Shown here: positions 42,580-61,822 of the stretch, one piece after another
How the letters are laid out: every line of letters begins with the position of its first letter
Numbering within the stretch: position 1 is the first letter of the stretch
NCBI RefSeq assembly: GCF_009938015.1
Contig: NZ_AP021884.1
Coordinates: 1,971,501 to 2,035,500, forward strand
DNA: 64,000 nt
Direction of reading: 5' to 3'
Source of the DNA: Sulfuriferula plumbiphila
GTDB lineage: Bacteria > Pseudomonadota > Gammaproteobacteria > Burkholderiales > Sulfuriferulaceae
The notes under the pieces: generated by a model
What the model saw: only the letters and a program-made list of their open reading frames with translations
Database searches by the model: none
What the model was told of the DNA's origin: nothing
Translations under genes and position numbers: made by a program

Positions 42580-43052
42580 TCGAAACCCTCCTCGGTGGCC
42601 TCCTGGGCGGGGTCTTCCGTCTTGCGCCCGAAATCCTCAAGTGGCTGGACCGCAAGGGCGAACGCGGCCACGAGCTGGCCATGCAGGACAAGGCGCTGGA
42701 GTTCGAGAAAATTCGCGGCGCGCAGCGGATGGCCGAGATCGGTGCGAGCGCCGAAGCCGCCTGGAACGTCGGTGCCGTCGATGCGCTGCGTGAGGCCGTC
42801 CGCACCCAAGGTGAGAAGACCGGTGTGCGCTGGGCCGATGCGTTGTCTATCAGCGTGCGACCGGTAATCACCTACTGGTTCATGGCGCTGTACTGTGCGG
42901 CCAAGACGGCTGCTTTCGCGGCCGCCGTCACCGCTGGCTCTGGCTGGGGCACGGCCATCCTGCACGCATGGACGGAAGCCGATCAGGCGCTGTGGGCCGG
43001 GGTTCTGAACTTCTGGTTCCTCGGGCGCGTGTTCGACCGGGTGCGCTCGTGA
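42576..43052 (+). CDS. Holin-like membrane protein
   Basis: A 158-residue protein beginning with a glycine-rich hydrophobic stretch (TLLGGLLGGVF), then an amphipathic helix, two membrane segments (VITYWFMALYCAAKTAAFAAAV and a C-terminal AVLNFWFLGRVF-like segment) and a basic end. Related phage holin-type proteins have this plan. It overlaps the DUF6127 gene and the endolysin gene, and would release the endolysin to the periplasm. Confidence 0.7.
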   Translation: MIETLLGGLLGGVFRLAPEILKWLDRKGERGHELAMQDKALEFEKIRGAQRMAEIGASAEAAWNVGAVDALREAVRTQGEKTGVRWADALSISVRPVITYWFMALYCAAKTAAFAAAVTAGSGWGTAILHAWTEADQALWAGVLNFWFLGRVFDRVRS

Positions 43053-43516
43053 CCGGGGTGCCGAAAACGGCCATCGAGCTGGCCAAGCGCTTTGAGGGGT
43101 TCCACCGGGTGCCGAGGATCGATCCGGGCCGCGCGCATCCGTACATCTGCCCAGCGGGCTACTGGACGATTGGCTACGGCCATCTGTGCGAGTCGACGCA
43201 CCCGCCGATCACGGAGTCCGAGGCCGAGGTCTATCTTACGCACGACCTGCAAACGGCGCTCGCCGCAACGCTGCGCTACTGCCCGGTGCTCGCAACCGAA
43301 CCCGAAGGGCGACTTTCGGCCATTGTGGATTTCACCTTCAACCTTGGCGCGGGGCGGCTGCAGACATCGACGCTTCGGCGACGGATCAACCAGCGGGATT
43401 GGGCGGTATCAGCTCAGGAGCTCTGCCGATGGATCTATGGTGGCGGAAAGGTCTTGCCAGGTTTGGTGGCAAGGCGAAAGGTCGAGGCGGCGCTGATGTC
43501 TGGCCTTCACTACTGA
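43049..43516 (+). CDS. Endolysin, GH24 lysozyme
   Basis: A 155-residue muramidase starting at GTG 43049 (GTGA overlap). Catalytic elements are Glu16 in RFEGF, Cys34 in ICPAGYWT and Thr40 in WTIGYG, the E-C-T triad of P21-type endolysins with the expected five residues between Cys and Thr. No signal anchor is seen, so it depends on the holin. The last 7 bp overlap the convergent mcrC gene, joining the phage and defence blocks. Confidence 0.9.
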   Translation: MTGVPKTAIELAKRFEGFHRVPRIDPGRAHPYICPAGYWTIGYGHLCESTHPPITESEAEVYLTHDLQTALAATLRYCPVLATEPEGRLSAIVDFTFNLGAGRLQTSTLRRRINQRDWAVSAQELCRWIYGGGKVLPGLVARRKVEAALMSGLHY

Positions 43517-44634
43517 AGCGCTGGCTCACACAAGCGCAGCAATTGCGATCGAATCTCGCCGGGCGATGCTGTCAGATCCACCGTCGCAAATCGGATGCCA
43601 TGCCCCTGGATGACAACCGTCTCATCAACGGCGTCGCCGACGGAAGGGTGAAGCAACAGCCCACTGGCGTCATCCGCAAGCGGATCGCCGCGCCCGACCT
43701 GGGATCGCAGGTAGGCGTAGATCTGGTACACGTACCCGCTGCGCAGCGTCTCCTCTCGATACCATCCGCTCGTCACGATCGACGTGAACTTGGTGTCGAT
43801 GACGATTCGCCGGCCAGAAGGCGCATGGTCGAGTACCACGTCGGTTCGCATCGTCGGCAAGATCTTGTCGATTCCCGATGTCTTCTGTTCGATTTGCCAG
43901 CCCAGCGTACCGCCACAGCGAACCCGCCATCCCTGCGGTTGCAGTACCACGTCATAGAAGCCGCCCACGGCCTTCTCGAACAGTCGCCGGACCCAGGTGA
44001 CCTCGCGTTCCGGCAGAGTCAACACGTTCGTCCCTGCCACCTCAGTTGGCAAGGCAAGATCAAAAGCCAGCTTCGCCGCAGCCACCATGAATCTGTCATC
44101 AGCGTCGTTGCGGCCAAAGCGATCTGTGCTCATCTGCGCGCGAGTGGGTACATCGCCGGAAACACCCATGGCCTTCATGCCGCTGGCAAGTGAGCGGCAG
44201 CGATGAGACACGTCCTTCCTTTGCACAATTCGGGCGATGGTCTCTAGTGCCGCGCGCACAAAGCGATTGCGTGGCGTGTCGACGGTCAGCTCATCAAATC
44301 GACAGGCCACTAAGCCACGATCCAGCAATCGATGCCGCTCCGTATTCAGGACATCAATTCGCCCGCGCACGCGATTTAGGACAGCATCCCGAGATCGGTA
44401 GCCCAGGTTGAGGCGGCGGCGCTGCCTGACTTCGACTGCGTGGGCCAGAATCTCGGCGACCAGATCGGGGAGATCGTCAGGGTTGTCCTCCAGGCCAACC
44501 TTGCCGATGCCGCGAGTGCGGAACAATTCCGACGCGTACAGCATCAGCAGCCACAGATTGCGCACCGGAATACGTCCGATGTAGCCATTTGCGTCGACCG
44601 ACGCGCTCTCGACCTGCTCCGCGACCACACCCAT
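43510..44634 (-). CDS. mcrC: McrC nuclease subunit of McrBC type IV restriction system
   Basis: A 374-residue McrC protein starting at ATG 44634 in a TAATG overlap with mcrB; the upstream GTG-type extension is not needed. The N-terminal part has IGRIPVRNLWLLMLYASELF and helical DNA-handling regions. The nuclease core is PD-(D/E)XK: TDVVLD followed by RRIVIDTKF near residues 262-285. It cuts DNA when driven by the McrB GTPase ring. The 3' end overlaps the phage endolysin gene by 7 bp. Confidence 0.87.
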   Translation of the reverse strand: MGVVAEQVESASVDANGYIGRIPVRNLWLLMLYASELFRTRGIGKVGLEDNPDDLPDLVAEILAHAVEVRQRRRLNLGYRSRDAVLNRVRGRIDVLNTERHRLLDRGLVACRFDELTVDTPRNRFVRAALETIARIVQRKDVSHRCRSLASGMKAMGVSGDVPTRAQMSTDRFGRNDADDRFMVAAAKLAFDLALPTEVAGTNVLTLPEREVTWVRRLFEKAVGGFYDVVLQPQGWRVRCGGTLGWQIEQKTSGIDKILPTMRTDVVLDHAPSGRRIVIDTKFTSIVTSGWYREETLRSGYVYQIYAYLRSQVGRGDPLADDASGLLLHPSVGDAVDETVVIQGHGIRFATVDLTASPGEIRSQLLRLCEPALQ

Positions 44635-46865
44635 TACCAGCCCTGAAGCAGCCGCGCACACGCCTTCTGCGCTTCGTCAGGGGCGTCAAACCAATACTCA
44701 TCGAGCAGTGGCCCGATCTCAGTCTCGACCACCTGCTGGAACCACTTTTTCGTGTCCCCGGCCTCCAGCCTATGGGCGGGCGTCACGTAGCTATGGCCGA
44801 TCCGGAACTGCTTTCCAAGGCGAGCGTCAGCCGCTATCTGGTCATTTAGCTCTGCAATCCGGTGCTCAATATCCGCGACCAGAGCAGGATCGACAGCACA
44901 CTCCTTGACAGCCCAATCCCGCCATGCGGTGCCAAGCCTTGGCTCGAGCCCCACGAAGGCGAAACGCCGACGCAACGCGAGATCGACCAGGGCCAACGAC
45001 CTGTCGGCGATATTCATCGTGCCGACGACGTAGAGGTTTTCCGGAATGTGGACGGGGCGACGTTTGCCATCCGCGTCCGGGTAGCACAGTTCCAGTGCCT
45101 CATTGGGCGTGCGCTTTCCAGCTTCAAGCAGCGTCAGGAGTTCGCCGAAGATCTGCGCCGGGTTGCCACGGTTGATCTCCTCGATCACCACGACGAACTT
45201 CGACGATGGGTCCTTCGACGCTGCCTTGATCGCTTCCATGAATACGCCGTCGGCTAGCGACAATTTCCCCTCGCCGGTCGGCCGCCATCCTCTGACGAAA
45301 TCCTCGTAGGACAGGTTGGGGTGAAACTGCACCGCACGGACTTTGCTTTCGTCCTTTTGACCCATCAGCGCAAACGCCAGGCGCTTCGCAAGCCACGTCT
45401 TGCCGGTGCCTGGTGGCCCCTGAAGGATCAGGTTCTTCTTGGTGCGAAGGCGGTCCAGAAGCCGATCGATCTCGTTGCGTTCAAGGAAGCATCCGTCCTT
45501 GAGAATGTCGTCGACCGAGTACGGCACGATCGGCACGGCAACATGAACGTCCTCTGGTGCAGTTGCCTCGGTAGCATCGTCACCATCATCGACGTCACCA
45601 GCGTCGTCTTCGCCGACCGGAGACTTCTCATCGGTGGGGTCCTTGTACAGCCATGCTTCCAGCGAAAGCTCAGGGTAGGAATGGACCGGGTAAGCGGTCT
45701 CCTGGAAGCGCGGCTCCAATACATCCATCACGGCAAGGTAGTCTGCCGAATTGCAGCGCCTCTTCGGGCCGTGCATGCCAATCGGCACACCGAGCTTCTT
45801 GCTGACATAGAGCTGAGAGTTGTGATCAAGGCTCAGGAACGCCCAAGGCCTGATCCAATACAGGCCGAACGTCAGATTCCATGCAACGCCTCGCCGACCG
45901 TTCGCGCTGTCGAAAGCCTTGGCGAACTCCTCGCGGGCAAGGTCATCGTCGGTATCTGCGTACGCGATACCCGCTGCGAAGACCCCCCAAAGCGCGTCAA
46001 TGTGGTCGGTGGCGCGATTGATCTCGAATGGAAAGTACCAGGACTTCAAGTTGTTCAGCAGCGGGATGCCTTCGAACGTCTCTGGAACCGGCTCGTCGAC
46101 GCCCAGGAATTTTGCCAACTCGGTCGCGATGATCTTGCGGTTGGAGTCCTTGATGCCCCGATTGAACAGACCCATCGTCGTGAACGGGCAGATGTCCTTT
46201 ACGAAGCCCGTAGTGCCGTCTGCATACTTATCCTCTGCCAGATGGCCGAGTCCGTCGACGCGAACGGAGATCTCCCGGATTCCCTCCACAAGGGCTGCCC
46301 TGTTGGCGCGATAGGTGAGCAGCTTGTCCGCGATTGCTTCATAGAACTTTGTCCAGCCGAAGCGATGTTTGTCTGCTGCCACCGTCCCGAATCGCTCCCG
46401 CCAGTAGGGAGCGTTTCGGAAACGCTCAACGTCCTGCGGCTTGTTGTGGAAGGCGAAGCTGATCAAACCATCGGTCATCCATTCACCAGGCAAAACGCGC
46501 CACACCGTTCCCCGGTGGGTATAGAAATACCACTCACGCACCGGTTCGATTTTTGTCCAGTCAACCTTAACTCGCTGACCATCATTCAGGTTCTCAGTGA
46601 TCGTACCAATTGCCTTGATCGCCATCACCGAAACCGCTTGTCCACGGCTGTCAAAGGGTAGCCCATGCTTGCGCGTGTAGGACGACTTGATGGCGATCTG
46701 ATCTCCTGGTCGCATCGATCGCACCACGTCGAGATGCTTGTCCTCGTAGCCGTTCTCCCAAATCCCCTCGGACAGAAAGCGTGGCAACTGATCGTCCGTG
46801 CCCCCGTAGCTTGCGCCAACAAACCAGCTCGCCTGTGCGCTCGAGTTCTCTGTTTTTATGTTCAT
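44634..46865 (-). CDS. mcrB: McrB-type AAA+ GTPase with EVE/PUA-like reader domain
   Basis: A 743-residue protein. The C-terminal AAA+ domain has Walker A GPPGTGKT at 483-490, Walker B IEEINRG at 561-567, the GTMN signature near 615-618 used for GTP selectivity, and LRRRF near 631. The N-terminal about 150 residues (ASWFVGASYGG, FLSEGIWENGYEDKHLDVVRSMRPGDQIAIK) resemble EVE/PUA-like domains that read modified bases, not the E. coli DUF3578 domain. It starts 8 bp after brxA with SD GAGG. It should recognise modified phage DNA. Confidence 0.85.
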   Translation of the reverse strand: MNIKTENSSAQASWFVGASYGGTDDQLPRFLSEGIWENGYEDKHLDVVRSMRPGDQIAIKSSYTRKHGLPFDSRGQAVSVMAIKAIGTITENLNDGQRVKVDWTKIEPVREWYFYTHRGTVWRVLPGEWMTDGLISFAFHNKPQDVERFRNAPYWRERFGTVAADKHRFGWTKFYEAIADKLLTYRANRAALVEGIREISVRVDGLGHLAEDKYADGTTGFVKDICPFTTMGLFNRGIKDSNRKIIATELAKFLGVDEPVPETFEGIPLLNNLKSWYFPFEINRATDHIDALWGVFAAGIAYADTDDDLAREEFAKAFDSANGRRGVAWNLTFGLYWIRPWAFLSLDHNSQLYVSKKLGVPIGMHGPKRRCNSADYLAVMDVLEPRFQETAYPVHSYPELSLEAWLYKDPTDEKSPVGEDDAGDVDDGDDATEATAPEDVHVAVPIVPYSVDDILKDGCFLERNEIDRLLDRLRTKKNLILQGPPGTGKTWLAKRLAFALMGQKDESKVRAVQFHPNLSYEDFVRGWRPTGEGKLSLADGVFMEAIKAASKDPSSKFVVVIEEINRGNPAQIFGELLTLLEAGKRTPNEALELCYPDADGKRRPVHIPENLYVVGTMNIADRSLALVDLALRRRFAFVGLEPRLGTAWRDWAVKECAVDPALVADIEHRIAELNDQIAADARLGKQFRIGHSYVTPAHRLEAGDTKKWFQQVVETEIGPLLDEYWFDAPDEAQKACARLLQGW

Positions 46866-46873
46866 GGATGTCC

Positions 46874-47596
46874 TCAGATAGTGCTGCGCAAAGCGACGAA
46901 CTGGTTACTCGGCCCCTCCGACCGTAGGTCGAGGTATGGGGAGTTCGAGACGACGTAGGCCAAAGGTCTCGTTAAACGGAATGGAAACAGGACAGGCAGT
47001 GATTGCAGGCTATGAACTGAAACAGGCTTGCCGACGTAGCGCACAGCCGCCTCGATCAGCCATACCGTGAGTTCGTCGCTGTCGATAGGCGTCGCTGCAA
47101 GACGGATGACGCGCTTGCCTTTCTCGACACGCTCTACCGCGCCCCAGCTTGCTTGTGTCTGGATGACCATATTGGTCATGCGTCGCGTGCCTTCGCGTTC
47201 GCCGTAGATCTCGCTCATACGGCGATGCACTTCGGCAGCTGCGCAGTCGTCTTGGATGGCCGACAAGCGACCCACCAACTCAGACACTTTCCCGAAAAAC
47301 GGATAGCAGGCTATGGCCACGCCCCAGCACAGTACCGGAATTGGTGTGTCGGGCTGGCTTTTGTAAAGAGCCGCCGCCCGGTCGGCGAAGTCCACCAGCT
47401 CGGCGCGTGGCTCCAACCACAGCCGGTTCAAGACGGTTCGTGTTTTTTTCTTGGCTTCCACGCCAAGTTCGGCTGCGTCGAGCAGTGCATTCAGATCATC
47501 TAGCCCAGCTGTACCCGCACGAACCCGCAGTGCCGCAGCCGCCCAATCAAGCTGAATGAACCGATCGAACCCAATCTGAGGGGCTGATGTATTCAT
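46874..47596 (-). CDS. brxA: BrxA-like protein of BREX type 3
   Basis: A 240-residue protein starting at ATG 47596 in an ATGA overlap with pglZ. The fold appears helical, with a central part (MTNMVIQTQASWGAVERVEKGKRVIRL) like a winged helix. Sequence similarity to BrxA is weak by eye; the call rests mainly on position after pglZ, size and predicted composition. It would be a DNA-binding scaffold subunit. An unrelated BREX-3 accessory is the alternative. Confidence 0.58.
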   Translation of the reverse strand: MNTSAPQIGFDRFIQLDWAAAALRVRAGTAGLDDLNALLDAAELGVEAKKKTRTVLNRLWLEPRAELVDFADRAAALYKSQPDTPIPVLCWGVAIACYPFFGKVSELVGRLSAIQDDCAAAEVHRRMSEIYGEREGTRRMTNMVIQTQASWGAVERVEKGKRVIRLAATPIDSDELTVWLIEAAVRYVGKPVSVHSLQSLPVLFPFRLTRPLAYVVSNSPYLDLRSEGPSNQFVALRSTI

Positions 47597-49614
47597 TCGT
47601 TTCCAATCACATATTTAACTTTCACAAACGGCACGATCAGCTCTTCTACCGAGATGCCGCCGTGGACAACCACTTGCTCGCCATCGGGAACAAAAGCCGT
47701 TCGGCCACCCGCGAATAAGGGCATATAGCCCGCCGGTAGTCCAGCGATGTCCAAGTGCACTGAGTTGGCATTTGCCGCTGCGGATTTAGCCAACAACGAT
47801 TCACTGCGATACACGCGCACCCGTTCGCCACGGGCTTCTGGAACATCCCCTTCAGATGGACGTCCCACGCCAACAGCTTCAACGTTGCCGTGATCCGCTG
47901 TCAGGTAAATATGAAAGCCTCTGTCGAGCAGCATCGCAAACAAGCGATCGACGAAGCCTGTTTTCAACCAGTTCGCGATCCACAAGGCCACATCTTGTTT
48001 GGAGCGTTCCTTGTGCAGTCGGTCATCCACCTCGTCGACCACCAACCCGACCACCTTGGGCCGACGATCGTCCAGCGCTGCTTGCAAGGCATCCAGCTGC
48101 TCAATCTGCCGCAACGAGCGCTGGTAGTAGATTTCGCCCGGCTTGACGCCTTGCTCCTGCCAGTAGGCCTTCCACAGGTACTCTTCTTTGTTGGTATGGC
48201 CGATCGACTCTTCGAATTCCCGCGGTTTACGGCCAGAGAACAGGGCCTGCCGCGACACCGAGGTCACGGTGGGGAGCCAAGCGAAGGAAGTACCTTCATC
48301 AAACGCAAAGCGCTTCGTCGCCTCGACTAACCGCTCCCGAATCTGTACCCACTGGTCCAAGGCTAAGCCATCAAAAACCAGGAGTGCGATCTTGTCGGCC
48401 CCGAGCGCTTTCCGGCGAGAGCTCAGATAGTCGGGAATCCGATGCACCATCACCGGCCCGTTGTGGAACGAGAGCGTGCTCAGATCCGCATAGTGCTTGG
48501 CAGCCACCCACGCATGTAGCTGCGCATCCGACTGTTCTTGCAGTGTTTTCACGAGAGCCTGCACCTCTGCCAAACCGTCTGTGCCATAGGCATTGCCCAG
48601 ATCGTGCACGCGGGCGAGAGTTTCGCCGTACTGCTTGGCAAACTCGCTCCAGGCCTTGTGCGTAGCCGTCGCGCTTGGAATCGCGTCAATCAGCTTGGCA
48701 ATTCCCTTTTTCACAAAAGCGTTGCGCGCTTGCGGGTCTTGCACAATCCCGGCCTTGATCCAGCCTGGCGCGTCAGCTGGCACAACCTCAACGACCAGCG
48801 GGTGCAAGGAGCCATTCAAGAACATCGAATCAACGATGGATTGCACATCCGAGTGCGCAAACGGAATATCGACTTTGGCCACGTAATCGGGGGGTGGTGG
48901 CTCGCCAATGCGTGAGCCTTCCATGCCCAAGTTCGCCAGGTAGCGATGCCAAGCCTCCTGCACCACGCGCAGCAACGCACTCTTCGACGACAGCCACGCG
49001 GCCACCGGAAGGCCTGCAAGCAGTCCCTTGCTCTGGATGATGCTGGCTGCGTGCTCGGCAAAGACCAGGGGCAGCGCACGGTTAGCAAAGTGCATCCGCA
49101 GCACATCACGCCAGAAATCACTTTCCGTGCGAATGCTGGAGCGCGGTGCCAGGTGGTAGACCCGCTCCAGTATGAAATCTTTGGACTCGTTCTCGCCGCG
49201 AATACCCTGCAGCTCGGTGTCGTGCGCCTCCAGCAAGGCGGCAAAGTGCTCGGGTTCAAGCTGCTTGACCACGTTGTAAGCCAAACGCGGAAACAACTGT
49301 GCCAAGCCCAGACTTACGACACGACCATAGTGCCCAAGGTCCCAAGGCAGCTCATTGGGATCTGCACCGCGCCAATGCACAACCACAGCGGGCGTGGGGC
49401 CGGGCTCGCCTCGGTCCCAGGCGGCGCGATAGCGCTCCTCAAACTCTGTACGGAACACAAAGGGGTCTTCGTACAACAGCACCTCGAAGCCACGGCTGCG
49501 CAGTTCGGCCAGCAAACGCTCGTCCAGCAAGACGTCGTCCGGATCGCAGGCCACCCACAGCCGGTCGAGATCAGCTGTGAAGCGACTGAGAATTCGTTCA
49601 ATCCACTGGCTCAT
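47593..49614 (-). CDS. pglZ: BREX-3 PglZ, alkaline phosphatase superfamily
   Basis: A 673-residue protein. PglZ-domain metal-site sequences are visible as LLVFDGLALDQW near residue 410 and LTADHGNVEAVG near 574. The N-terminal half is specific to the BREX-3 group (WIERILSRFTADLDRLWVACDPDDVL, PTPAVVVHWRGADPNELPWDL). PglZ is essential in BREX but its substrate is not settled. It overlaps both neighbours by 4 bp, so stoichiometry is probably coupled. Confidence 0.9.
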   Translation of the reverse strand: MSQWIERILSRFTADLDRLWVACDPDDVLLDERLLAELRSRGFEVLLYEDPFVFRTEFEERYRAAWDRGEPGPTPAVVVHWRGADPNELPWDLGHYGRVVSLGLAQLFPRLAYNVVKQLEPEHFAALLEAHDTELQGIRGENESKDFILERVYHLAPRSSIRTESDFWRDVLRMHFANRALPLVFAEHAASIIQSKGLLAGLPVAAWLSSKSALLRVVQEAWHRYLANLGMEGSRIGEPPPPDYVAKVDIPFAHSDVQSIVDSMFLNGSLHPLVVEVVPADAPGWIKAGIVQDPQARNAFVKKGIAKLIDAIPSATATHKAWSEFAKQYGETLARVHDLGNAYGTDGLAEVQALVKTLQEQSDAQLHAWVAAKHYADLSTLSFHNGPVMVHRIPDYLSSRRKALGADKIALLVFDGLALDQWVQIRERLVEATKRFAFDEGTSFAWLPTVTSVSRQALFSGRKPREFEESIGHTNKEEYLWKAYWQEQGVKPGEIYYQRSLRQIEQLDALQAALDDRRPKVVGLVVDEVDDRLHKERSKQDVALWIANWLKTGFVDRLFAMLLDRGFHIYLTADHGNVEAVGVGRPSEGDVPEARGERVRVYRSESLLAKSAAANANSVHLDIAGLPAGYMPLFAGGRTAFVPDGEQVVVHGGISVEELIVPFVKVKYVIGNE

Positions 49615-52454: not shown

Positions 52455-52456
52455 GC

Positions 52457-55237
52457 TCAGAGCCCGTCCTCTGTGCGGGTCAACGCCATGTCATAGAGGG
52501 TGAGCAGCTTTTCATCTTCCTGAAGCGTCTCCTCGGGCAGCTTGTTGGCGACGTTGATGATGGTCTGGTATTCCTTGGTCGCCCACGCCGCCCGGAAACC
52601 AGCACGCAGCACCTCCAGACGCGACTCTTTGATCTTGCGTCCGGTGAAGGCCTTGTAGGTCTCGAACTCTTTCAGCAGTGCTTTTTCGCGCTTCATTTCC
52701 AAGTCTTGCGCCTTGTTCGGGTCAGGCACGTACCAGCGATCTTTGGCCTTTGTCATCAGGGCCGGGTCATTCTTTTCGAGGCCACGCTGGTCTTTGTGGT
52801 TCGAGGAGAGGTAGCTGTGAATCTGGCTGGGTACTTCACCCTTGCCATCGTATTGAATGAAGTTTTCATCCAGCAGTCGGGCGAGCTCAGGTATCACTTC
52901 ACCTTTCTTTTTCGCCGCGCCAATAATTGGCATGTATTCCGATGTAATTTCTGCATATGTTGACGGACGTTTCTTCAAGAAATCAGATAGCCAGTCGATA
53001 GCACTTCGCTCGTCAGAAACGAACATTTCAATCTGAGGTGCCACAGCCACCTGCAGCCGCTTTTTGTCATATTCCGCAGCTTGCTCAGGTAGAAAAATCA
53101 TCCCGTCACGCGGTTCAAAACGCTGGCTGAGACCTGACTGAAATTCCTGACTGGACAATGGCACGACAAAGTCATGCTTCACAAACCACGCCACCATGCG
53201 GTCAAAGATGATTCGCGGGTCGCGCTCCTGAATAAATTCAAGTTCGCCACCCTTCATTTTGACGGACGGAAGATACCCTAAGTGCGTTCGAACAAAGTCC
53301 CACACAGAATCGACTTGACCTCCCGCTTTGATGAACCGCGCTTCCAGTCCGCCATTGGGTTTATAGGCAGTGATGACCAAGTCCTGTTTGACAGATGTTG
53401 CGTTTGAAACCGCATTAAAGCTGCCCTGCACCTTGTTCAGCGCGGATACGTTGGCGATGACGAATCCCGCCTCCTGCAGAGCGGTTCGAATTCCGTTCCA
53501 AACGGCAGCTTGGGTGTTCGAAAAAACGACCGTCATCCAGCGCCCGGGTTTGAGTACGCGGTAATACTCCGCAAAACAGGACTTCATCAGCCGGTAGTAC
53601 TCGTGCAAGCCTTTTTGTTGGCTGTCACTCATAACCGCTTCAGGCCCTTGGTGTGTAAATACGCGATGGAAGGCCTCGACGATAAAATTCAGTTCGGAAT
53701 ACGCGAGGTTGTCGCCGAAAGGTGGGTCGGTAAAGATGTAATCAATGCTGCTGTCGGGCAGTCCGAGCTGGGCGGCCGTGCCTGTAGTGATCGCCGTATT
53801 GCCAGCACCGACTTTGTAATCACTGAACGCTTTGATCAGGCGGTCGAGTTTGCCGCCCAAGTTGTACCAAGGGCTGCATTCGGAATGTTGTGATGCGACG
53901 TAGTAAACGCCGGTCAAAATGCGGTTAACTTGAGAAAAGTGCGTGGGCCCATACCGATTCAATACTGATAGGCCGGCAATCGCCTGCTCGACCATGTACA
54001 ACAAGAAAGCGCGGATGCGAGGATCTGGGTTTGCATTGGCTTTCTCCCAAAGTTTCCCAACGGCTTGTGCAGCGCGCGGAAGAAAAAGGTGATGAACGTG
54101 TGAAAAAGACGCCGATCCGGCACGCCATTTGTCACCCCACTTCTGCTGATCTTCTGCGGCATGCATCATTCGACTGGCCGGGAAAGCTGCAGGAAAACTC
54201 AGTGCCGCAATTTTCCCCAATACCTGACGATCGAAGTTGTCAGGTTTTTTCTCATACTTTTTGCCACTCGCTATATAGAAGATCAGGCTCGGTACCCGTT
54301 TTGCGGTTTTGAGAGCTTTTCCTGAAACGGGGTCGACTGTCGTTTCGAAGAGTTTTTCGAGCTTCTTCTTGGTAAGTTCAGCACCACAATGTGGGCAAGG
54401 GAAGTCGTCTCGGACCCGCTTGGTCTCCTCGTCCAATGCTTCATCAAGGAAGTTGACCTCCCCAGCGCAATGCGGGCAGGTGAAAACCTCACTCCACACC
54501 GTGTACTCAATCCGTCCCTTGGTTTTGCCGTCGGTGTGAGTGGTTTCGTACATCCAGCCAATATCTTGTTCCAGCTCTTTGAGCATTTGCTTGCCAGCTT
54601 TGGCAAAGACTGCGACATCGAGCGGAATGTTGTAGTTGGCACCAATGAAGGTGGCGGCTGGCGACAAATCATTGATGACGGCGCGCCGTGCGCCCCATTT
54701 GGGCGCTGGCTTGCCTTGTTTTTTCCATTCCATCTCCAATTCATGCCGATAGGTCGCCGGTGCCAAGCCACACCACTGCGCGGCAACCCCTGTCATTCCT
54801 GACCCGCCGAAAGCATCGAGAACGATGTCACCGGGTTCTGTGTAGTGCAGGATCGACGGCACGATTGCAAGATGGGGCACCTTGGTGTGATACGAGTGGG
54901 CTTTATAAAGCGCGTCTGTTTTACCAACCGTCACGTCGACTGTTTGTGGTTCCCTGCTGTACTTTGCGCTCGGGTCGTAAGGCTTGCCGTAGTGACGCAC
55001 GAAGTCCTCAAGAAACGGGTTCGGGCAGGCTGTGTAGTACGGCGGATCAGACATCGCCAGGATGGCTTCATCCGTGCCCTGTGGGAATCCTTCGATCTTG
55101 CGGAACGCCGGATCTTTTAGCTTCTCGGCCAACAGCTTCAGAAAATGGTCGCGGCGCGCATTCTCGTTCGGGAATGTTTGGCCCAGACATTCCACCGGAC
55201 CGGATTTTGACGATTGGCTCTGAAAAAAATCATTCAT
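52457..55237 (-). CDS. pglXI: BREX-3 DNA methyltransferase PglX
   Basis: A 926-residue protein. DPPY lies at 64-67, the SAM motif DAFGGSGMTG at 141-150, and a second DPPFGDN near 505. Two CPHC knuckles (254-257, 281-284) form a zinc ribbon. It is the host-marking N6-adenine enzyme of type 3 BREX, with a DUF1156-like layout. Its start overlaps the preceding unknown gene by 8 bp. Base composition across this gene is visibly less GC-rich than in brxC or pglZ. Confidence 0.87.
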   Translation of the reverse strand: MNDFFQSQSSKSGPVECLGQTFPNENARRDHFLKLLAEKLKDPAFRKIEGFPQGTDEAILAMSDPPYYTACPNPFLEDFVRHYGKPYDPSAKYSREPQTVDVTVGKTDALYKAHSYHTKVPHLAIVPSILHYTEPGDIVLDAFGGSGMTGVAAQWCGLAPATYRHELEMEWKKQGKPAPKWGARRAVINDLSPAATFIGANYNIPLDVAVFAKAGKQMLKELEQDIGWMYETTHTDGKTKGRIEYTVWSEVFTCPHCAGEVNFLDEALDEETKRVRDDFPCPHCGAELTKKKLEKLFETTVDPVSGKALKTAKRVPSLIFYIASGKKYEKKPDNFDRQVLGKIAALSFPAAFPASRMMHAAEDQQKWGDKWRAGSASFSHVHHLFLPRAAQAVGKLWEKANANPDPRIRAFLLYMVEQAIAGLSVLNRYGPTHFSQVNRILTGVYYVASQHSECSPWYNLGGKLDRLIKAFSDYKVGAGNTAITTGTAAQLGLPDSSIDYIFTDPPFGDNLAYSELNFIVEAFHRVFTHQGPEAVMSDSQQKGLHEYYRLMKSCFAEYYRVLKPGRWMTVVFSNTQAAVWNGIRTALQEAGFVIANVSALNKVQGSFNAVSNATSVKQDLVITAYKPNGGLEARFIKAGGQVDSVWDFVRTHLGYLPSVKMKGGELEFIQERDPRIIFDRMVAWFVKHDFVVPLSSQEFQSGLSQRFEPRDGMIFLPEQAAEYDKKRLQVAVAPQIEMFVSDERSAIDWLSDFLKKRPSTYAEITSEYMPIIGAAKKKGEVIPELARLLDENFIQYDGKGEVPSQIHSYLSSNHKDQRGLEKNDPALMTKAKDRWYVPDPNKAQDLEMKREKALLKEFETYKAFTGRKIKESRLEVLRAGFRAAWATKEYQTIINVANKLPEETLQEDEKLLTLYDMALTRTEDGL

Positions 55238-56576
55238 TGGGTGTGATCTCGCTAAAGTCGATCGGCGTATTGACAGCCGACTGATCTGATTTTTTTGGTT
55301 TTACCGCGATGGCAACAGCCTTCCCGGTTTCAAGTGTTTGACGGATGGCTTCTTTAAGAACAACTGACTGAGCCGGTGTCGTGCCTACCCATGCTTTGGC
55401 AACGATTGAGGTGAATGCTGAGTTGTCGAAGTGTCGGCCAACGTTATCGTAGTTAATCCGCAGCCCACCCCGAGGCCCTTTGATGCCTGGGTGTTGCTCA
55501 AGTAGCTTCCAGTAGTCCAGTGGCAAGTACATGCCGGGCACCAAACCTATGTCATCTGGATTGAAAACCAGTCTTGGGCACAGCTTCAGGAAAAAGGGGT
55601 TCTCGATCAGGCGAAAACCGTCATGGGAGTCGTTGGCCGGACAAGCCTTGATCGCCGCAAGCAGCGCATCCATCCTTGCAATTTCTTCTGTGAGCTGGGT
55701 ATTGGGAAGCCGAAAAACGGCTTGCGAGACACCGTCAGCTCCATCTTCACGCTCCATCGCTTTGTACTGGACCATGACGAAACTCTGGAACGTCTCATTG
55801 AAATAGATGAGATCGGTGCCGGTTTGCTCTTCCAGGGGGAGCCTGTTGGCAAGGATGACAGTGAGTCGTTCAGACGTCGCCCCTGATTCAAATACCGCTG
55901 CGTTGTATGGGTAGGTCTTGATGATGTCAAAACCGGGCAGATGCATCAGGTCATGAATGACCATCGGGTCCTCACGCAAACGCGTGTTGGGCAGTCCATC
56001 AAGAAAAGAGACAGGGGGACGATCAGTCGGCGTCCATTCCTGTACTGATTCCCTGCTCAGGTTGGCAATCGACAAAGCGGTTAGCAGTGCTTCTTTCTGC
56101 TGCGCCAGGCCGTTTCGGGTTTTGGCAGACAGCCGCTGAATACGCTCTGCGCGCTCCTGGCTGAATCGCTCAAGTAGTGAGCTGGCTTTCGGCGCAAGCT
56201 TACGGATTGCCTCAACAACGACGGCGAAACCTTTTTCAGTAAGCAGCCCGCCAGACTCGAACCGCTTTTGGACTGACGACAGGTTGCGCTTTGGCAATAG
56301 CTTGAATATCCGGTGTAGTGCCAATGGCTCCGGTAGCGTCTCTGCTTTGTCGAAATTGAGTCGTCGAAGGCCAGTACCCGCGCGACTACCTCTGCGCCCC
56401 ATTGCAATATGCGTAATCTTTCGGCCATCGAGAATGAAGCAGACCAAAGCCGCATTGCGACTATGTTGAAAGTCTGCCACGGGCTCGGCAAACGGCTGTT
56501 CCTCCTCGACACACGCGAGGAAAGCTGTCATCCGACTCTTGGAGAGAACAGCGACGAAGCCGCTTGCTTTAGCCAT
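55230..56576 (-). CDS. Unrecognised 448-aa protein inserted in BREX-3 operon
   Basis: This gene is not part of the standard BREX-3 set. It is soluble, with an N-terminal part (GFVAVLSKSRMTAFLACVEEEQPF, ALVCFILDGRKITHIAMGRR) that may form a beta-rich domain, a helical middle, and a C-terminal half with HDLMHLPGFDIIKTYPYNAAVFES, LIYFNETFQSFVMVQYKAME and FFLKLCPRLVFNPDDIGLVPGMYLPLDYW. The YNETFQSFVMVQYK pattern recalls nuclease-like E-x-K/Q-x-K strands but I cannot prove it. It lies 11 bp after brxC and overlaps pglX by 8 bp, so it belongs to the operon. Low GC here matches pglX. Confidence 0.82.
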   Translation of the reverse strand: MAKASGFVAVLSKSRMTAFLACVEEEQPFAEPVADFQHSRNAALVCFILDGRKITHIAMGRRGSRAGTGLRRLNFDKAETLPEPLALHRIFKLLPKRNLSSVQKRFESGGLLTEKGFAVVVEAIRKLAPKASSLLERFSQERAERIQRLSAKTRNGLAQQKEALLTALSIANLSRESVQEWTPTDRPPVSFLDGLPNTRLREDPMVIHDLMHLPGFDIIKTYPYNAAVFESGATSERLTVILANRLPLEEQTGTDLIYFNETFQSFVMVQYKAMEREDGADGVSQAVFRLPNTQLTEEIARMDALLAAIKACPANDSHDGFRLIENPFFLKLCPRLVFNPDDIGLVPGMYLPLDYWKLLEQHPGIKGPRGGLRINYDNVGRHFDNSAFTSIVAKAWVGTTPAQSVVLKEAIRQTLETGKAVAIAVKPKKSDQSAVNTPIDFSEITPNE

Positions 56577-56587
56577 TTGCTTTCACA

Positions 56588-59500
56588 TTACTCAATGATG
56601 AAGCGTAGCTTTTCGGGATCTTCCTTGCCCTTGCAGCGCTCTTTCAGGAAGGCTTCGAAGCGCTCGCGCACATCCTTGAGCGTGGCAGGTGACCCCCCCA
56701 GCAGCAGTGCCTGCTTTATCTCGTCAGCTTTGACCACCACTTTCTCCAAGCCAACCAGCGCCATCTGCACTGCGTTGGCAAACTCGCTGGTGACTGGGTC
56801 TGGCAACGTGCGTGACGACAGGAAGGAGTTGATCAGCTTCTTGCTGGCGTCCGGCAGCAGGCCGAGGCTTTCCTGTGTGAAGGGGTCTTCCAGGTTTTCC
56901 AGCAAGGTTTGCTGCCAGTTGGCGACGAGCTGATCCAGATCGTCATCCAGCTTGTGCAGTGCTTTGGCTGCAGGGATGCTGAGCTCCAACTGTTCGGCCG
57001 AGGGGCGGTATTGGCAGTGCGGGCACACGGCGACCGTGTTGAGGGTGGGCTCGTCCAGTGCAGAGCAGCTCTTGAGGCCATTCAGCGCTTCTTCAAACGT
57101 GGTGAGCTGGCTGACATTCATCATTTCCACACCAGCCAGAACGCGCAGGCCTTGCAGACGCGGGTCGTTACGCAGGGTGTTCCGGCTCTTTTCTTCCGAC
57201 ACGCCAAGCCGCGCCTTGGTGTGGCTGGCGATGTAGGCTTTTTTGTAGTCTTCCTTGAGCTGGTTGAGCGTTTGGCGGTACTCGCTGGCGTGTTCGGTCG
57301 TGCGGTCCTTGCTCAGCTTTTCTTGCATCGCCTTGCGCGCGGCTTCGGCCTGCTTGACCCACTCGTGCCCTGCAGGCAGCACCATTTCGGCCTGCGAGAG
57401 GTAGGCAGCCGTGCTGCCCAGCTCCACCACCAGATCGAGCATGCGCTCAACGGCGGCCAGGACCTCCAGATTCTTTTTCTGCGCTTCGATGTCCTCTTGG
57501 GTGACGCGCAGATTCTTCAGCTTGCCGACGGTGTTGTACGGCGACAGGTCTTCGGTGAACTTCTTGAGCGAATCCAGCCGGGCGTGCCAGCCCTTGGATT
57601 CTTCTTCGCGCAGCAGGTTTTGGCCCCAAAAGCCGAGCTTGCCTTGTTGCAGATCCGAGCCCGCCTTAAGCACACGCGGCGTCATGGCGCTGATGCGGTC
57701 TTGCAGTTCACGCACTGCCTCTGGGTCGCCTTGCGTGGCCTTTTGCGCCCAGCCGGAGGCCAAGCCAAAGAACTCGAACAAGGCTTTCAGGACGGCGACA
57801 TTGATTTCCTTGGGCGCTTCGATGTGTTTGAACTGCTTGAGATCTTCCAGCGAGCGCTCAGCCAGTTGCGCCAGCTTGCCGGAATCGATCTTGTCGCCGG
57901 TGATGGACAGCACCAAGTCACCGGAGTACACCAAGCCGCTCAACACGGTGACCAGCAGGTCGGGTTCCAAACGGTACTTAATGGGCGCAAAGTATTCGAC
58001 ATCCGCATTGCCCGAGAGTAGTTCGCTGCGGTTGAGTACCTGGCCGTGGCCTTTTTCCTTCAAGCGCTTCAGCACCTCCTGGGCATAGCGGGAGTTGGCT
58101 GGCTCGACACGATCGCCATCCAGCAACTCCAGTGCATCCAGAACGGCAATGGCGTCTTTGGTGCGGTTGCCACCGGCCAGGGCGCGCAGTGCGTTGCCGA
58201 CCAGTTGCTTGCGGTTGCCTTCGGTGAACAGAACCGAGAACGTGGGGTACTCCGGGGCCAGATCGACGAAGTGCTGGCTCAGGGCCAGACCGGAGGTGAT
58301 GTTGACCACGTCGCGGAAGTTGATGCGCTCATCCGGCCCAAGGCGCGCACGGTCACGCAGGGAGATGCCTTTGGACCAGTCTTGCAGAGTCTTGGTTTTG
58401 CCCTGGTAGGTCACTTCGAAGGCAGTCATCTGCTTTTCCTGCAGCCATTTGCCCATGGCCTTGAGGAAGTCCTGGGCCTTGGACATGTAGATGGCCTTGG
58501 CTCCGCCACTGGCGGTGGAAGCCAACTCCAGCGCCGCAGCGTAGGAAGACAGGTGGCGTTTGATGTCTTCGTCCAGGCCTTTCAGGCGGAAGAAGACCTC
58601 ATCGGCCAGGTTGTTGTCCGTGAACTTACGCTTCTCGAACGGCGGGATGAAGTAGATGTAGAAGTCCCGCTCGGGCTGGGCTGTGGGCCGGTCGTTCGGT
58701 GCGCCAAAGAACAGGTAACCGATGCGATCGGCACGGCGTTCTTGCCATTCGATTTGGTACTGCCAGATCTGGAAACCCGAGACATAGCTCGGGTCGTTCG
58801 GGTTTTCTCGAACCAACTGCAGCAGTGCCGCGTAATAGGCGCGGTCAAGCTGGTCGTCATCAAGGCTGCCGGTGCGGTTTTCGATTTGCGCATCGTAATC
58901 GATGTCTTTCTTCAGGTCGAGGTAGTACTGCTCGGTGTCAGCGGCCTTGGAAATGAACTGGCCGTTGACGGTTTTGAGCACTTCCCGCAGGACCGTGACG
59001 ACCTTGGAGAGCAGGTTCTCCGCAGCATCACCCGGCAAATCAGCAATGGTCGGGTCAAACAAGCAAAGCGCATCACGCAACTCTGCTGCCGTGGGGCCGA
59101 TCGGCACATGGATGTCACCGCCGGTGGTCAAGCGATGCACGGCCAGTGCGTTGATGACGCGCAGTGCCATCCCTTTGTAGGCCGGGCGCGTGAACGACTG
59201 CTGCACGCGAGACTCCAGCACGTCGGAGACGCGCAGAACCTCCTTGATGTTGGCATCTGGGCGCAGAGCGGAATTCTTCTTGATGGTCTGCCAGTACGTC
59301 TCATAGCTGATGAGCTCTGGCTTGTCGGTTGGCACTTCCTGATCGAGGAGCGCCTTCATCGCGGCTTCGATGGTGGTCAGTGCGCCCCGCTTTTCGGCGA
59401 AGTGGATCTGCTCAAAGGTTTTGAGGTAGTCCGGGTGAACGGGGAACAGCCGGACGTACTCGTCCATGCGTTCGTTCATGGAGCCGTAGAACTTGGTGAA

Positions 59501-60340
59501 GGGCGTGAGGTACTCGCGGATCTTGTTTTGCTGATCGGCACTCTTTTTCAGCAAACGCGCGGCGACCACAAAGCTGACGTCATTGCGGTCGATCAGAATT
59601 TGCGTAAAGCGTTCGTGCACGCGGCGCATGCTGCTGGCCACGTGCTCGAAGCGGGCACTATCAAAAATGGCTTCCTGCACACCTGCAACAAAGCGGAACT
59701 TGAGGTGCTTGGTGACTTCGCCAATCTGGCGCAGGATGGCCAGATCGAGTGCCAGTTCGTGGCCGCGACGCGAATCGAGGTATTCAAGGAACTCGTCCAC
59801 CACCAACAGGATGCCCTGGCCCGGGTAGACGTCTTCAAACGCTCCCATCATTTCTTCGAAGGAGTGCTTGTTGTCCAGCTCCTGGTCAGCCGTGGGGAAC
59901 GTGTAGGAGACGCCAAGGTTGGCCAGGAACTCTTGCAGCCTACGGGTGATGATCTGGCGCAGGGGCATCTCCAGACCACCCACCTCGATACGCAGCACCT
60001 TGAACTTGCCCGCGATGGACGCAGCGGCTTCGGCCACCTTCGGATGGCGAAGCATCGGGGCGTAGGCCGCATCTTCGGCCACCAGCGACAACACCGACAT
60101 CAGGTGCGACTTACCCGTTCCGTAGTTGCCGACGATCAGCACACCTTTATGGTCAACGGTGTCGTCGAAGCTGATTTGAGGAATCATGAGCTTGGCGATC
60201 CGCTCGGCCATGTCATCGGAAATGACATAGGTGGTGACGAGCTTCTTTGCCTCATCGGGCCGCCCGGCGTCGAGCAATTGAATGACCGATTCGATTTGTT
60301 CGAACTGGACCAGATCACCGTATTTCATCTTGTTAGCCAT
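56588..60340 (-). CDS. brxC: BREX-3 ATPase BrxC (DUF6079)
   Basis: A 1250-residue AAA-type ATPase. Walker A is GNYGTGKSH at 71-79 and Walker B ILLVVDEFLEYLD at 177-189. Beyond about residue 450 it is a long helical array, with a single CPHC knuckle near the C-terminus (VAVCPHCQYRPS). BrxC is a core motor or scaffold of BREX complexes. It follows brxF by 22 bp. Confidence 0.9.
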   Translation of the reverse strand: MANKMKYGDLVQFEQIESVIQLLDAGRPDEAKKLVTTYVISDDMAERIAKLMIPQISFDDTVDHKGVLIVGNYGTGKSHLMSVLSLVAEDAAYAPMLRHPKVAEAAASIAGKFKVLRIEVGGLEMPLRQIITRRLQEFLANLGVSYTFPTADQELDNKHSFEEMMGAFEDVYPGQGILLVVDEFLEYLDSRRGHELALDLAILRQIGEVTKHLKFRFVAGVQEAIFDSARFEHVASSMRRVHERFTQILIDRNDVSFVVAARLLKKSADQQNKIREYLTPFTKFYGSMNERMDEYVRLFPVHPDYLKTFEQIHFAEKRGALTTIEAAMKALLDQEVPTDKPELISYETYWQTIKKNSALRPDANIKEVLRVSDVLESRVQQSFTRPAYKGMALRVINALAVHRLTTGGDIHVPIGPTAAELRDALCLFDPTIADLPGDAAENLLSKVVTVLREVLKTVNGQFISKAADTEQYYLDLKKDIDYDAQIENRTGSLDDDQLDRAYYAALLQLVRENPNDPSYVSGFQIWQYQIEWQERRADRIGYLFFGAPNDRPTAQPERDFYIYFIPPFEKRKFTDNNLADEVFFRLKGLDEDIKRHLSSYAAALELASTASGGAKAIYMSKAQDFLKAMGKWLQEKQMTAFEVTYQGKTKTLQDWSKGISLRDRARLGPDERINFRDVVNITSGLALSQHFVDLAPEYPTFSVLFTEGNRKQLVGNALRALAGGNRTKDAIAVLDALELLDGDRVEPANSRYAQEVLKRLKEKGHGQVLNRSELLSGNADVEYFAPIKYRLEPDLLVTVLSGLVYSGDLVLSITGDKIDSGKLAQLAERSLEDLKQFKHIEAPKEINVAVLKALFEFFGLASGWAQKATQGDPEAVRELQDRISAMTPRVLKAGSDLQQGKLGFWGQNLLREEESKGWHARLDSLKKFTEDLSPYNTVGKLKNLRVTQEDIEAQKKNLEVLAAVERMLDLVVELGSTAAYLSQAEMVLPAGHEWVKQAEAARKAMQEKLSKDRTTEHASEYRQTLNQLKEDYKKAYIASHTKARLGVSEEKSRNTLRNDPRLQGLRVLAGVEMMNVSQLTTFEEALNGLKSCSALDEPTLNTVAVCPHCQYRPSAEQLELSIPAAKALHKLDDDLDQLVANWQQTLLENLEDPFTQESLGLLPDASKKLINSFLSSRTLPDPVTSEFANAVQMALVGLEKVVVKADEIKQALLLGGSPATLKDVRERFEAFLKERCKGKEDPEKLRFIIE

Positions 60341-60362
60341 GTTTTCCTCGTTCCCCTAAGCT

Positions 60363-60818
60363 TTAAATCTCAAGTGCGACCACGCCATCAGCGTCGTAGT
60401 CGCGGTATTCCGGGTGCGTCATCTCGGCGTAATACAGCCGATTCCCGCGCAGTTCGCCGGGCCAAACGGCCACGACGCGCTTGGAGTGCGCCAGCCGTTT
60501 GATCAGATCCAGCGGATTGATCTCCAAGCCACGCTCAAACAACAACTCGATGTTGTCGAGCAGCAGCACCGCTTCTTTACCCTGCTTGTCAGCGATATCC
60601 CGCAGCAGCTGGCCCGCAGAAAAGCCACGCGCTGCGTGCGGCGTAGCCGACAAGCGACGCCCCAACTCCAGGTTGACGTTCAGCGGCTGGACACCCAGTT
60701 TGGCTCCCAACTCTTGCAGCAACTTGGTTTTGCCACTGCCGCGCGGCCCAGCCAGCACGATGAGTTTTGTGTGTAGCTCGCCAAGCTGGTCTACGTACCG
60801 TTCCAGTTTTGTCAGCAT
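60363..60818 (-). CDS. brxF: BREX-3 small ATPase BrxF
   Basis: A 151-residue P-loop protein. Walker A is GPRGSGKT near 24-31 and Walker B LLLDN near 85-89. This minimal NTPase is specific to type 3 BREX and identifies the subtype. It follows brxR by 10 bp and precedes brxC, the canonical order. Confidence 0.88.
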   Translation of the reverse strand: MLTKLERYVDQLGELHTKLIVLAGPRGSGKTKLLQELGAKLGVQPLNVNLELGRRLSATPHAARGFSAGQLLRDIADKQGKEAVLLLDNIELLFERGLEINPLDLIKRLAHSKRVVAVWPGELRGNRLYYAEMTHPEYRDYDADGVVALEI

Positions 60819-60828
60819 CAGCAGCCCC

Positions 60829-61743
60829 TCATTCCACTTCGGCTTCTGGCCGAAGGTGGTCAGGCGAGCGGTAGCCGGGAGCGAGCAGCGCGTTCTTCAC
60901 GCCATAGAGCGCCAGGTGATCCCGCAGCCACAGTCGATATTCAGGGCCTCGCAGGCTGTGATCGGGGGAGCAGTCCACGCTCCACTTGCGCAACACATAA
61001 CCGGCAGTGGCGGCGCGCAGATTCATCTTGAGCAGGCCATCGCGCATGCCGTAGTCCAGCAGTGTGACCTCTGGTCGTGACTGATCTGGGTGGGGAACGA
61101 GCTCCAGTTCAACGATACGAGTCCACTGGATATCCTGATCAGGACGCTCATGTGCCTCAACCGGGGCATCTTTCAACACGGCAGGATCTTGAATCCGGGT
61201 CAGCACAAAGTCTCGAAACTCACCCGACTTGCGGTCGAAGGCGCGGGTGTGCCAGCGCAAGCCAGTGTCCAGTAAGGCGAAAGGGACGATCTCACGCTCG
61301 CTTTGGCCGTTTTCGACAGATTGGTACTTGATACGCACGGGGCACTTGTGACTGATGGCCCGGGTGATGCTGGCCAGCGTGCTGAGATCGGGCTGCCCCA
61401 GTTTGTTGGGAATGTCGCAGGTGATACCGGTGCGGGAGCGGACCGGTTCTCCATCCCCAAAGCCTTCAGCCAGCCACGTCAGGACTCGCTCGGCTGGAAA
61501 GTCAAACAGGGGTGTGAACGCTCGCCCAATGATGTATGTCTTGGAGCTTCCGTCGTACTCGATGTTTGCTGGGGCCATCTCTTTGTAGAGCCCCAGGTCT
61601 CGGGTAGCTGCGGCTGTTTGGATTCCGAAGCGTGACGCCATGTCCTGGCGGCGGATTTCGCCCACGAACCATAGTCGCAGCTCGATGTACGCCATTCGGT
61701 CACGCTGGGCGTGTCCAAGTTCTTGTAGGCGATCTGTGGTCAT
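60829..61743 (-). CDS. brxR: WYL-domain transcriptional regulator BrxR
   Basis: A 304-residue regulator. Residues 15-65 hold a winged HTH (RRQDMASRFGIQTAAATRDLGLY). The WYL domain follows near 140-215 (VRIKYQSVENGQSEREIVPFALL, GLRWHTRAFDRKSGEFRDFVLTRI), and the WCX-like C-terminus has YGMRDGLLKMNLRAATAGYVLRKW. BrxR proteins repress their own BREX operon and are thought to respond to a nucleic-acid ligand. An inverted repeat around its promoter is a likely binding site. Confidence 0.88.
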   Translation of the reverse strand: MTTDRLQELGHAQRDRMAYIELRLWFVGEIRRQDMASRFGIQTAAATRDLGLYKEMAPANIEYDGSSKTYIIGRAFTPLFDFPAERVLTWLAEGFGDGEPVRSRTGITCDIPNKLGQPDLSTLASITRAISHKCPVRIKYQSVENGQSEREIVPFALLDTGLRWHTRAFDRKSGEFRDFVLTRIQDPAVLKDAPVEAHERPDQDIQWTRIVELELVPHPDQSRPEVTLLDYGMRDGLLKMNLRAATAGYVLRKWSVDCSPDHSLRGPEYRLWLRDHLALYGVKNALLAPGYRSPDHLRPEAEVE

Positions 61744-61776
61744 CTTCTGTTACTCGATTCCAAGTGGACTGGTGTA

Positions 61777-61822
61777 GATCGTCGAGAGTATAAGGGAGCG
61801 ATTGTTGTGTGTCGATACGATC
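61777..61822. promoter_or_regulatory. Candidate BrxR operator (inverted repeat)
   Basis: GATCGTCGA (61777-61785) and TCGATACGATC (61812-61822) are inverted arms with a 2-base insertion. One arm overlaps the -35 and the other abuts the -10 of the brxR promoter. The right arm also lies in the spacer of a weak plus-strand promoter candidate (TTGTGT 61805, TTAAAT 61829), so one protein could control both directions. Confidence 0.5.
61787..61815 (-). promoter_or_regulatory. Sigma70 promoter of the brxR-BREX-McrBC operon
   Basis: On the minus strand, TCGACA (-35; plus coordinates 61810-61815), a 17-bp spacer and TATACT (-10; 61787-61792). It would start transcription about 36 nt before the brxR start codon. 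Confidence 0.7.

Follow-up and report, generated by a model that had tools for sequence, protein, structure and literature searches.

The 64,000-nucleotide stretch of the Sulfuriferula plumbiphila genome analyzed here (NZ_AP021884.1, positions 1,971,501-2,035,500; hereafter the window, whose positions are used throughout except where genome positions are specified) carries a compact defense operon in which a bacteriophage exclusion (BREX) system of type 3 is followed by genes for the modification-dependent nuclease McrBC. The open reading frame (ORF) listing places ten minus-strand ORFs between 61743 and 43510, running from brxR to mcrC with successive intergenic distances of 10, 22, 11, -8, 2, -4, -4, 8, and -28 bp. 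A first-pass annotation of this DNA had proposed a ten-gene run at 43510-61743 with no gap above 22 bp, headed by brxR and joining BREX type 3 to an McrBC tail; the ORF coordinates, a WYL-domain gene in first position, and family matches bear out these three points, respectively. The count of ten also holds, but it includes a gene for a 448-residue protein that the annotation had left undescribed. The first gene, brxR (60829-61743), encodes a 304-residue WYL-domain regulator (PF13280, 2.1e-12). It is followed by brxF (60363-60818; 151 residues; NF033453 BREX_3_BrxF, 175.5 bits against a cut-off of 50), with a Walker A motif GPRGSGKT at residue 24, and by brxC (56588-60340; 1250 residues; DUF6079), which matches PF19557 with 1842 bits and the PADLOC BrxC model with 1768 bits over its full length (residues 5-1250), carries a Walker A motif GNYGTGKS at residue 71, and scores 49.3 bits with NF033441, under the curated cut-off of 400. 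The methyltransferase gene pglX (52457-55237; 926 residues; BrxXI type) matches PADLOC PglXI over its full length with 1308 bits and encodes DPPY at residue 64, DPPF at 504, and CPHC at 254 and 281. In the available text of the 2026 BREX census (PMC12839542), a four-cysteine motif is a hallmark of type-3 BrxXI/PglXI; judged by its sequence, the CPHC pair is a motif of this kind. Downstream lie brxHII (49611-52454; a 947-residue Swi2/Snf2-type helicase; PADLOC BrxHI|BrxHII, 1452 bits, full length), the type-3 pglZ (47593-49614; 673 residues; NF033449, 692.7 bits against a cut-off of 250, and a full-length PADLOC PglZ match), and brxA (46874-47596; 240 residues; PADLOC BrxA, 235 bits, full length). 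The helicase name follows the census, which uses BrxHII for type 3 in the part available, while the PADLOC model description reads BrxHI. The gene complement of BREX type 3 (BrxF, BrxC, PglXI, BrxHII, type-3 PglZ, and BrxA) is thus present, and from the predicted proteins all six core genes are full length and the set is intact.

The tail of the operon begins with mcrB (44634-46865), encoding a 743-residue protein with a Pfam AAA_5 domain. Structures of Escherichia coli McrB match residues 449-740 (4e-73), and NF008457 covers only this same GTPase part, with 250.7 bits under a cut-off of 637. The motifs GPPGTGKT at residue 483 and NIAD at 618 are those of a canonical NxxD McrB; membership in the CoCoNuT group was considered and rejected, the motif being NIAD instead of NxD. 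Its partner mcrC (43510-44661) encodes a 383-residue PD-(D/E)xK nuclease subunit that matches NF007277 (450.6 bits, cut-off 338), PF10117 (73.8 bits, cut-off 23.9), and E. coli McrC (1.1e-18), with its TD...DTK residues aligned to TD...DAK; no PADLOC model matched McrC. The N-terminal part of McrB had no Pfam match, and residues 1-455 were modeled by AlphaFold2 with 23 sequences (predicted local distance difference test, pLDDT, 77.5). In the model, residues ~9-160 (46386-46841) form a domain whose Foldseek matches include PH1033, MJECL36, Rpa0253, 2eve, Atu2648, and THYN1; the top five are EVE-kind proteins, and THYN1 with 5-methylcytosine (5mC) DNA ranks eighth. We take most of these top matches to belong to the EVE family, of which 2eve is the namesake. 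The consistency of this list makes it probable that McrB starts with an EVE-type base-reading domain. Among EVE architectures in defense, EVE-McrB is described as the most common (PMC7641849, as far as its available text goes), and the EVE domain of VcaM4I is described as binding DNA with 5mC or 5-hydroxymethylcytosine (PMC7897488, likewise). Residues ~165-412 (45630-46373) are modeled as a helical domain with a fold of no recognized type, which is the part that diverges most between McrB clades: in comparison with McrB of Pseudomonas indica (locus L031), identity is 66-90% over the first 180 alignment columns, 44-60% in the middle (68% at its end), and 95-100% in the GTPase. A resemblance of this domain to 8-oxoguanine glycosylase was set aside as noise (Foldseek probability ~0.1, root-mean-square deviation ~20 Å).

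The previously undescribed 448-residue protein is encoded between brxC and pglX (55230-56576). It has no family match in Pfam, PADLOC, or NCBIfam and no solved structure was found by sequence; the structure model is poor (mean pLDDT 38.6), too low for a fold search. An alignment of five sequences, that of the window among them and one partial, shows invariant E249, D255, and Q270-Y271-K272, a putative catalytic motif E249...GxD255...QYK272 (55761-55832). We read this pattern as a QxK-type PD-(D/E)xK site, and the protein may possibly be a nuclease of this type. Of 398 genomes searched, three others encode relatives, with nothing related to BREX among the neighboring ORFs, and none were found in the viral contigs searched. 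The brxC-pglX slot itself is variable: the seven BREX-3 relatives that carry mcrBC (see below) hold other proteins here, including a PD-T7-3 relative in L029 and an HEC-01A/B pair in L026, and in L028 a relative of the 448-residue protein together with two further ORFs.

The brxA and mcrB genes are tightly joined. The mcrB start lies 8 bp past brxA, the stop/start junction reads CTGAGGACATCCATG, and GAGGA, the putative ribosome site of mcrB, overlaps the brxA stop codon. A scan of both strands from 43300 to 62000 (~18.7 kb), with shuffled sequence as the expectation, found two promoter-like sites against 4.8 expected. Only one is on the minus strand: TCGACA-17-TATACT (61787-61815), which ends 43 bp before the brxR start and is a consensus match, not a proof of a promoter. 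Terminator-like sites numbered 15 on both strands against 17.7 expected by chance, so there is no excess, and the five on the minus strand all lie within genes. The scan reveals neither a terminator nor a promoter between brxA and mcrB, in agreement with the first-pass annotation, and co-transcription of the ten genes is likely on this sequence evidence alone.

Relatives of McrB were sought in one genome per species, yielding 41 loci in named genomes (designated L plus a number), and McrB relatives were also found on seven IMG/VR contigs; near-identical DNA on plasmids was limited to a single 67-base match. A BREX-3 brxA lies directly upstream of mcrB in seven of the 41 (L024-L029 and L032), and the adjacency thus passes a test by which the first-pass annotation proposed to refute it, its absence from all relatives. 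The intervening gap is 8 bp in the window and six of these seven, and 13 bp in the seventh; ATCTGAGG at the junction is kept in five (L024-L028). Other cores occupy the same place elsewhere. Type I hsdR is found upstream in 11 of the 41 (L030, L031, L033-L037, L040, L041, L050, and L057), labels that derive from family scans for L031 and from clustering for the rest; Type I genes also precede mcrB in L055 and L056. In L038 and L049 a type IIG/DrmMI-like methyltransferase and a DruE-like protein precede mcrBC, and the partners in L039, L044, and L047 are Type III-like or Type I-like, at distances of 126, 218, and -4 bp. The pairing asserted in the first-pass annotation therefore stands as an adjacency but is not peculiar to BREX-3, since McrBC also follows Type I and Druantia/ARMADA-like cores. 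The scanned core partners of this McrBC carry adenine-type methyltransferase domains.

The histories of core and tail are separable. In an McrB tree of 37 rows, which omits 12 of 49 loci that are partial or most distant, BREX-3-linked McrB proteins occupy two places, the clade of the window and, for L032, a position among Type I-linked proteins. A single clade of the nine BREX-3-linked McrB proteins, counting L097, whose BREX-3 label rests on a brxA fragment, is rejected (log-likelihood 353 lower; approximately unbiased test, p-AU 1.1e-73). In a BREX core tree that included three of ten McrBC-less loci from the blind sample described below, the L032 core groups 100/100 with L085 and L086, both without McrBC. 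The trees thus indicate that McrBC came to BREX-3 on at least two occasions, by joining or by replacement. The DNA is in line with this view. L032 (a Comamonas metagenome-assembled genome, BREX-3) was aligned by blastn with the Type I loci L031 (P. indica) and L037 (Dechloromonas): apart from about 0.5 kb plus brxR (88-90%) and the stretch from mcrB nucleotide 29 to near the end of mcrC (95-97%), nothing of 150 bp or more aligns. Against L038, L032 has 83% DNA identity in brxR and 95.5% in mcrBC. The McrB proteins of L032 (BREX-3), L031 (Type I), and L038 (Druantia/ARMADA-like) are ~97% identical, and between L032 and L031 identity is 95-100% in 11 of 12 sixty-column windows and 83% in the first. 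McrB of the Type I locus L030 falls within the clade of the window, on a long branch and weakly placed. Between the window and L024, most of the core and the tail are 87-92% identical in DNA, except for the slot and much of pglX, whereas only 209 bp of brxR align and the BrxR proteins are 64% identical; a brxR that differs while core and tail are alike implies that the head is exchangeable too. These comparisons make mcrBC look like a tail that can be reused behind methyltransferase-based cores headed by brxR.

A BrxR search in 16 genomes gave 12 matches at 64-68% identity, one at 34% (L039), and none in the remaining three; L035 and L036 have a BrxR match at 60%. BrxR heads the run in all 12 loci fetched, comprising the seven BREX-3 loci, four of Type I (L031, L037, L041, and L057), and L038; gene lists of these loci mostly end before mcrB, and the head was joined to the tail through contig coordinates. 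As a WYL regulator at the head of a defense operon in the window and in all seven BREX-3+mcrBC relatives, where its relatives are 64-67% identical to it, the protein conforms to the BrxR family. In the genome of L025, the BREX-3+mcrBC operon (L125) also carries, after brxR, a gene for a 692-residue helicase, RecQ-like by eye, and a DprA-like gene; brxR and these two genes are 75% identical in DNA, across 4.5 kb, to the corresponding position of the L031 Type I operon. In the genome of L057, a Type I operon (L134) has three extra large ORFs among its hsdM/hsdS genes.

The operon lies beside phage genes. Upstream in the window are a terminase gpA (18927-20894), a tape measure gene (29171-33214), and a tail gene (39971-41986). 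A plus-strand prophage endolysin gene (42968-43516; PF00959, phrog_7) is convergent with mcrC and overlaps it by 7 bp; at the other flank, a plus-strand gene for a 676-residue NUDIX-domain protein (61865-63895; PF00293, 6.2e-10) is divergent from brxR, 121 bp away. The cassette is flanked by relatives of the endolysin gene, the adjacent gp250 gene, or their neighbors in 13 of 48 other loci, of which 7 are among the 41 in genomes and 6 among the 7 on viral contigs, a count in which several loci end too soon to judge and the viral contigs are phage-derived by selection. A transfer-messenger RNA (tmRNA) gene lies 2.9 kb left of the window; no repeat of at least 14 bases of its 3′ end occurs up to genome position 2055399, and repeats of at least 16 bases out to 2075299 comprise only one group 77 kb apart and an isolated 16-mer, none at the tmRNA. 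The prophage and the defense operon lie between short same-orientation repeats (window 457-695; genome 2048951-2049189), and the gene that contains the right-hand copy looks by eye like one for a serine recombinase. Two adjacent phage genes at 13857-16630, both phrog_498 (DNA methyltransferase) and ParB-like, are an apparent tandem duplication. To the right of the operon, L065 (71987-76164 by extension of the window) contains further island genes that, judged by eye only, include an ATPase with an RloB-like neighbor and an AbiEii-like gene.

From gene content, order, spacing, and recurrence, together with the separate histories and the common head and tail DNA around different cores, we posit with fair assurance that the window carries an intact brxR-headed operon in which BREX-3 is followed by an EVE-McrB/McrC pair serving as an independent second layer against modified DNA, with a possible nuclease in the slot and mcrBC as a reusable tail. 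BrxR would repress the operon. PglX would mark host DNA at N6-adenine, and PglZ, BrxC, BrxF, BrxA, and BrxHII would act on incoming DNA that lacks the mark. Phages that escape BREX through DNA modification would then meet a second reader made from the same transcript: McrB hexamers would read a modified base via the EVE domain, most likely a C5-modified cytosine, and McrC would cut. Adenine marks would not be an McrBC target; adenine-type partner methyltransferases and a probable EVE-type domain are what tolerance of PglX marks would need. The same tail also follows Type I and Druantia/ARMADA-like cores, with brxR heading most of those examined. More tentatively, brxR...mcrBC may be a dedicated exchange frame, its ends acting as homology arms for core swaps between prophages while also supplying constant functions, a possibility to which we give only limited credence. 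The swapped cores would be BREX-3, Type I, and Druantia/ARMADA-like; the promoter and brxR would control dose, and mcrBC would catch phages that evade the core by DNA modification.

Several observations weigh against the layered-defense reading. The mcrBC genes lie 122-218 bp behind the cores in L039, L044, and L100 and have no such core in L042, L046, and L048, with a tRNA synthetase gene upstream in L042; the BrxR search gave no match in the genomes of L030, L034, and L050. As to the EVE-type domain, no Foldseek match has an E-value of 0.001 or below (the best is 1.8e-3), and the root-mean-square deviation is 6-7 Å for most EVE-type matches. If McrBC attacks any C5-methylated DNA, its hosts should be without C5-cytosine methyltransferases. 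The corresponding family, PF00145, is absent from the S. plumbiphila genome, but it occurs in 14 of 30 McrBC carriers, chosen from the 41 genome loci and unmatched for taxonomy or completeness, compared with 58 of 150 order-mates, which is no depletion. Finally, BREX-3 loci were sampled blind to McrB. In 369 genomes of the class, six others scored above the cut-off for PglZ-3 (L067-L072); in 399 genomes of the order, four loci have a close BrxA at 77-87%, which in one of them contains an inner stop (L084-L087). A tblastn search (E 1e-5) over 4.6-10.4 kb downstream of brxA found an McrBC relative in none of these ten. It is likewise absent from the more distant BREX-3 loci L088 and L089; L090-L092, cut or fragmentary, were excluded from the count. 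The zero among ten makes mcrBC an optional tail that BREX-3 does not need. In L085 and L086, brxA is followed by a DUF4917 gene (PADLOC PDC-S21) and no mcrBC, and DUF4917 comes after mcrC in 8 of 48 other McrB loci, L024 among them; its occurrence after either gene points to the 3′ end as an accessory slot.

A rival reading is hitchhiking, in which mcrBC travels with any defense operon at a prophage or island site; recombination would then account for the tight spacing, and no selection would tie mcrBC to BREX. We judge this unlikely, if worth keeping in view. The endolysin/gp250-type flanks, the variety of cores ahead of mcrBC and their occasional lack, and the ten blind-sampled BREX-3 loci without it are as expected of a passenger; yet mcrBC recurs on the same strand and in the same position, -4 to 13 bp behind BREX-3, Type I, Druantia/ARMADA-like, and L047 cores, a regularity limited by the wider gaps in L039, L044, and L100, and the pairing with BREX-3 has at least two separate histories. 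The tail could instead serve the mobile element, excluding competing mobile DNA that brings other modification systems and so protecting the prophage or island. The prophage and island setting fits, as does the statement in the available text of PMC12707154 that McrBC restricts modified DNA by any entry route; nothing, however, separates such a role from anti-phage action, and C5-methyltransferases are not rarer in carriers, which speaks against it. This proposal, which is compatible with a second defense layer, seems improbable as the explanation. A very remote prospect is that McrBC is the nuclease arm of BREX, cutting unmodified PglX sites while PglX protects the host, in the manner of LlaJI, described as such an McrBC relative (PMC12707154, in the part available). 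The fast-diverging middle domain of McrB could read sequence, but the probable EVE-type fold of the N terminus speaks against this, and nearly identical McrB proteins accompany BREX-3, Type I, and Druantia/ARMADA-like cores whose methyltransferases are unrelated, which makes matching to the site of any one of them unlikely. It is accordingly unlikely, as far as the sequences tell, that McrBC reads its partners' methyltransferase sites, and a cognate, LlaJI-like McrBC was rejected as the principal explanation. An EVE-McrBC second layer behind an exchangeable core remains the reading we favor. In this natural case, almost the same modification-dependent nuclease stands behind modification-based systems of different kinds under a single type of regulator, so that the proposed “belt and braces” link of BREX or restriction-modification (RM) with Type IV restriction could be tested with the core as the sole variable; the case also suggests how defense operons swap their core yet keep their regulation and a backup layer.

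The closest published parallel is the pEFER island of Escherichia fergusonii, where BREX and BrxU, a GmrSD Type IV enzyme, are under BrxR (PMC8565348, PMC9122601). According to the available portions of these reports and of PMC9122589, complementation of BREX by Type IV restriction and BrxR control are already published, and BREX with Type IV is the commonest BrxR-linked cluster (PMC9122601). Like the window, pEFER unites a BrxR-type regulator, BREX, and a modification-dependent nuclease in one island, a two-layer logic has been proposed for it, and it has an accessory gene between brxC and pglX. However, its BREX is called type 1 (PMC12839542) and that of the window is type 3, and its Type IV enzyme is BrxU, placed in this slot (PMC8565348), whereas the window has EVE-McrBC at the 3′ end after brxA and a possible QxK nuclease in the slot. 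Among the auxiliary or backup BREX nucleases of the census, insofar as its text is available, the 448-residue protein would fit the embedded PD-(D/E)XK effector class, and the HEC-01A/B pair of L026 may belong with the OLD-ATPase class; “Mcr” does not occur in the main text of the census as available. The open-licence literature searched, seen in part, yielded no description of BREX-3 with McrBC or of a brxR...mcrBC frame. A comparable interchange of BREX, RM, and DISARM at one cargo site is described for hotspot 5 of the SXT integrative and conjugative element (PMC12409358, PMC9040626), but the accessible text describes no common McrBC tail there, while here homologous brxR and mcrBC bracket the swapped core. 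McrBC has been noted with Type I RM, DISARM-like systems, and methyltransferases (PMC11090510), and, as presented in the accessible parts of this paper and of PMC12458937, operons of McrBC with Type I RM or DISARM-like systems place a canonical NxxD McrBC in line with another DNA-targeting system, as in the window; BREX is named in the abstract together with CoCoNuTs, whose McrB has NxD and not the NIAD seen here. The Type I and Druantia/ARMADA-like cores found in this work look like those of the two papers, and the upstream genes of L038 and L049 are similar to the ARMADA-type arrays of PMC12458937. To these known arrangements the window adds a BREX-3 core, and its relatives add a common brxR head and mcrBC tail around swapped cores. 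The locus is real, recurrent, and modular: BREX with Type IV restriction under BrxR was already known, and BREX-3 with an McrBC tail is new as far as the literature searched shows.

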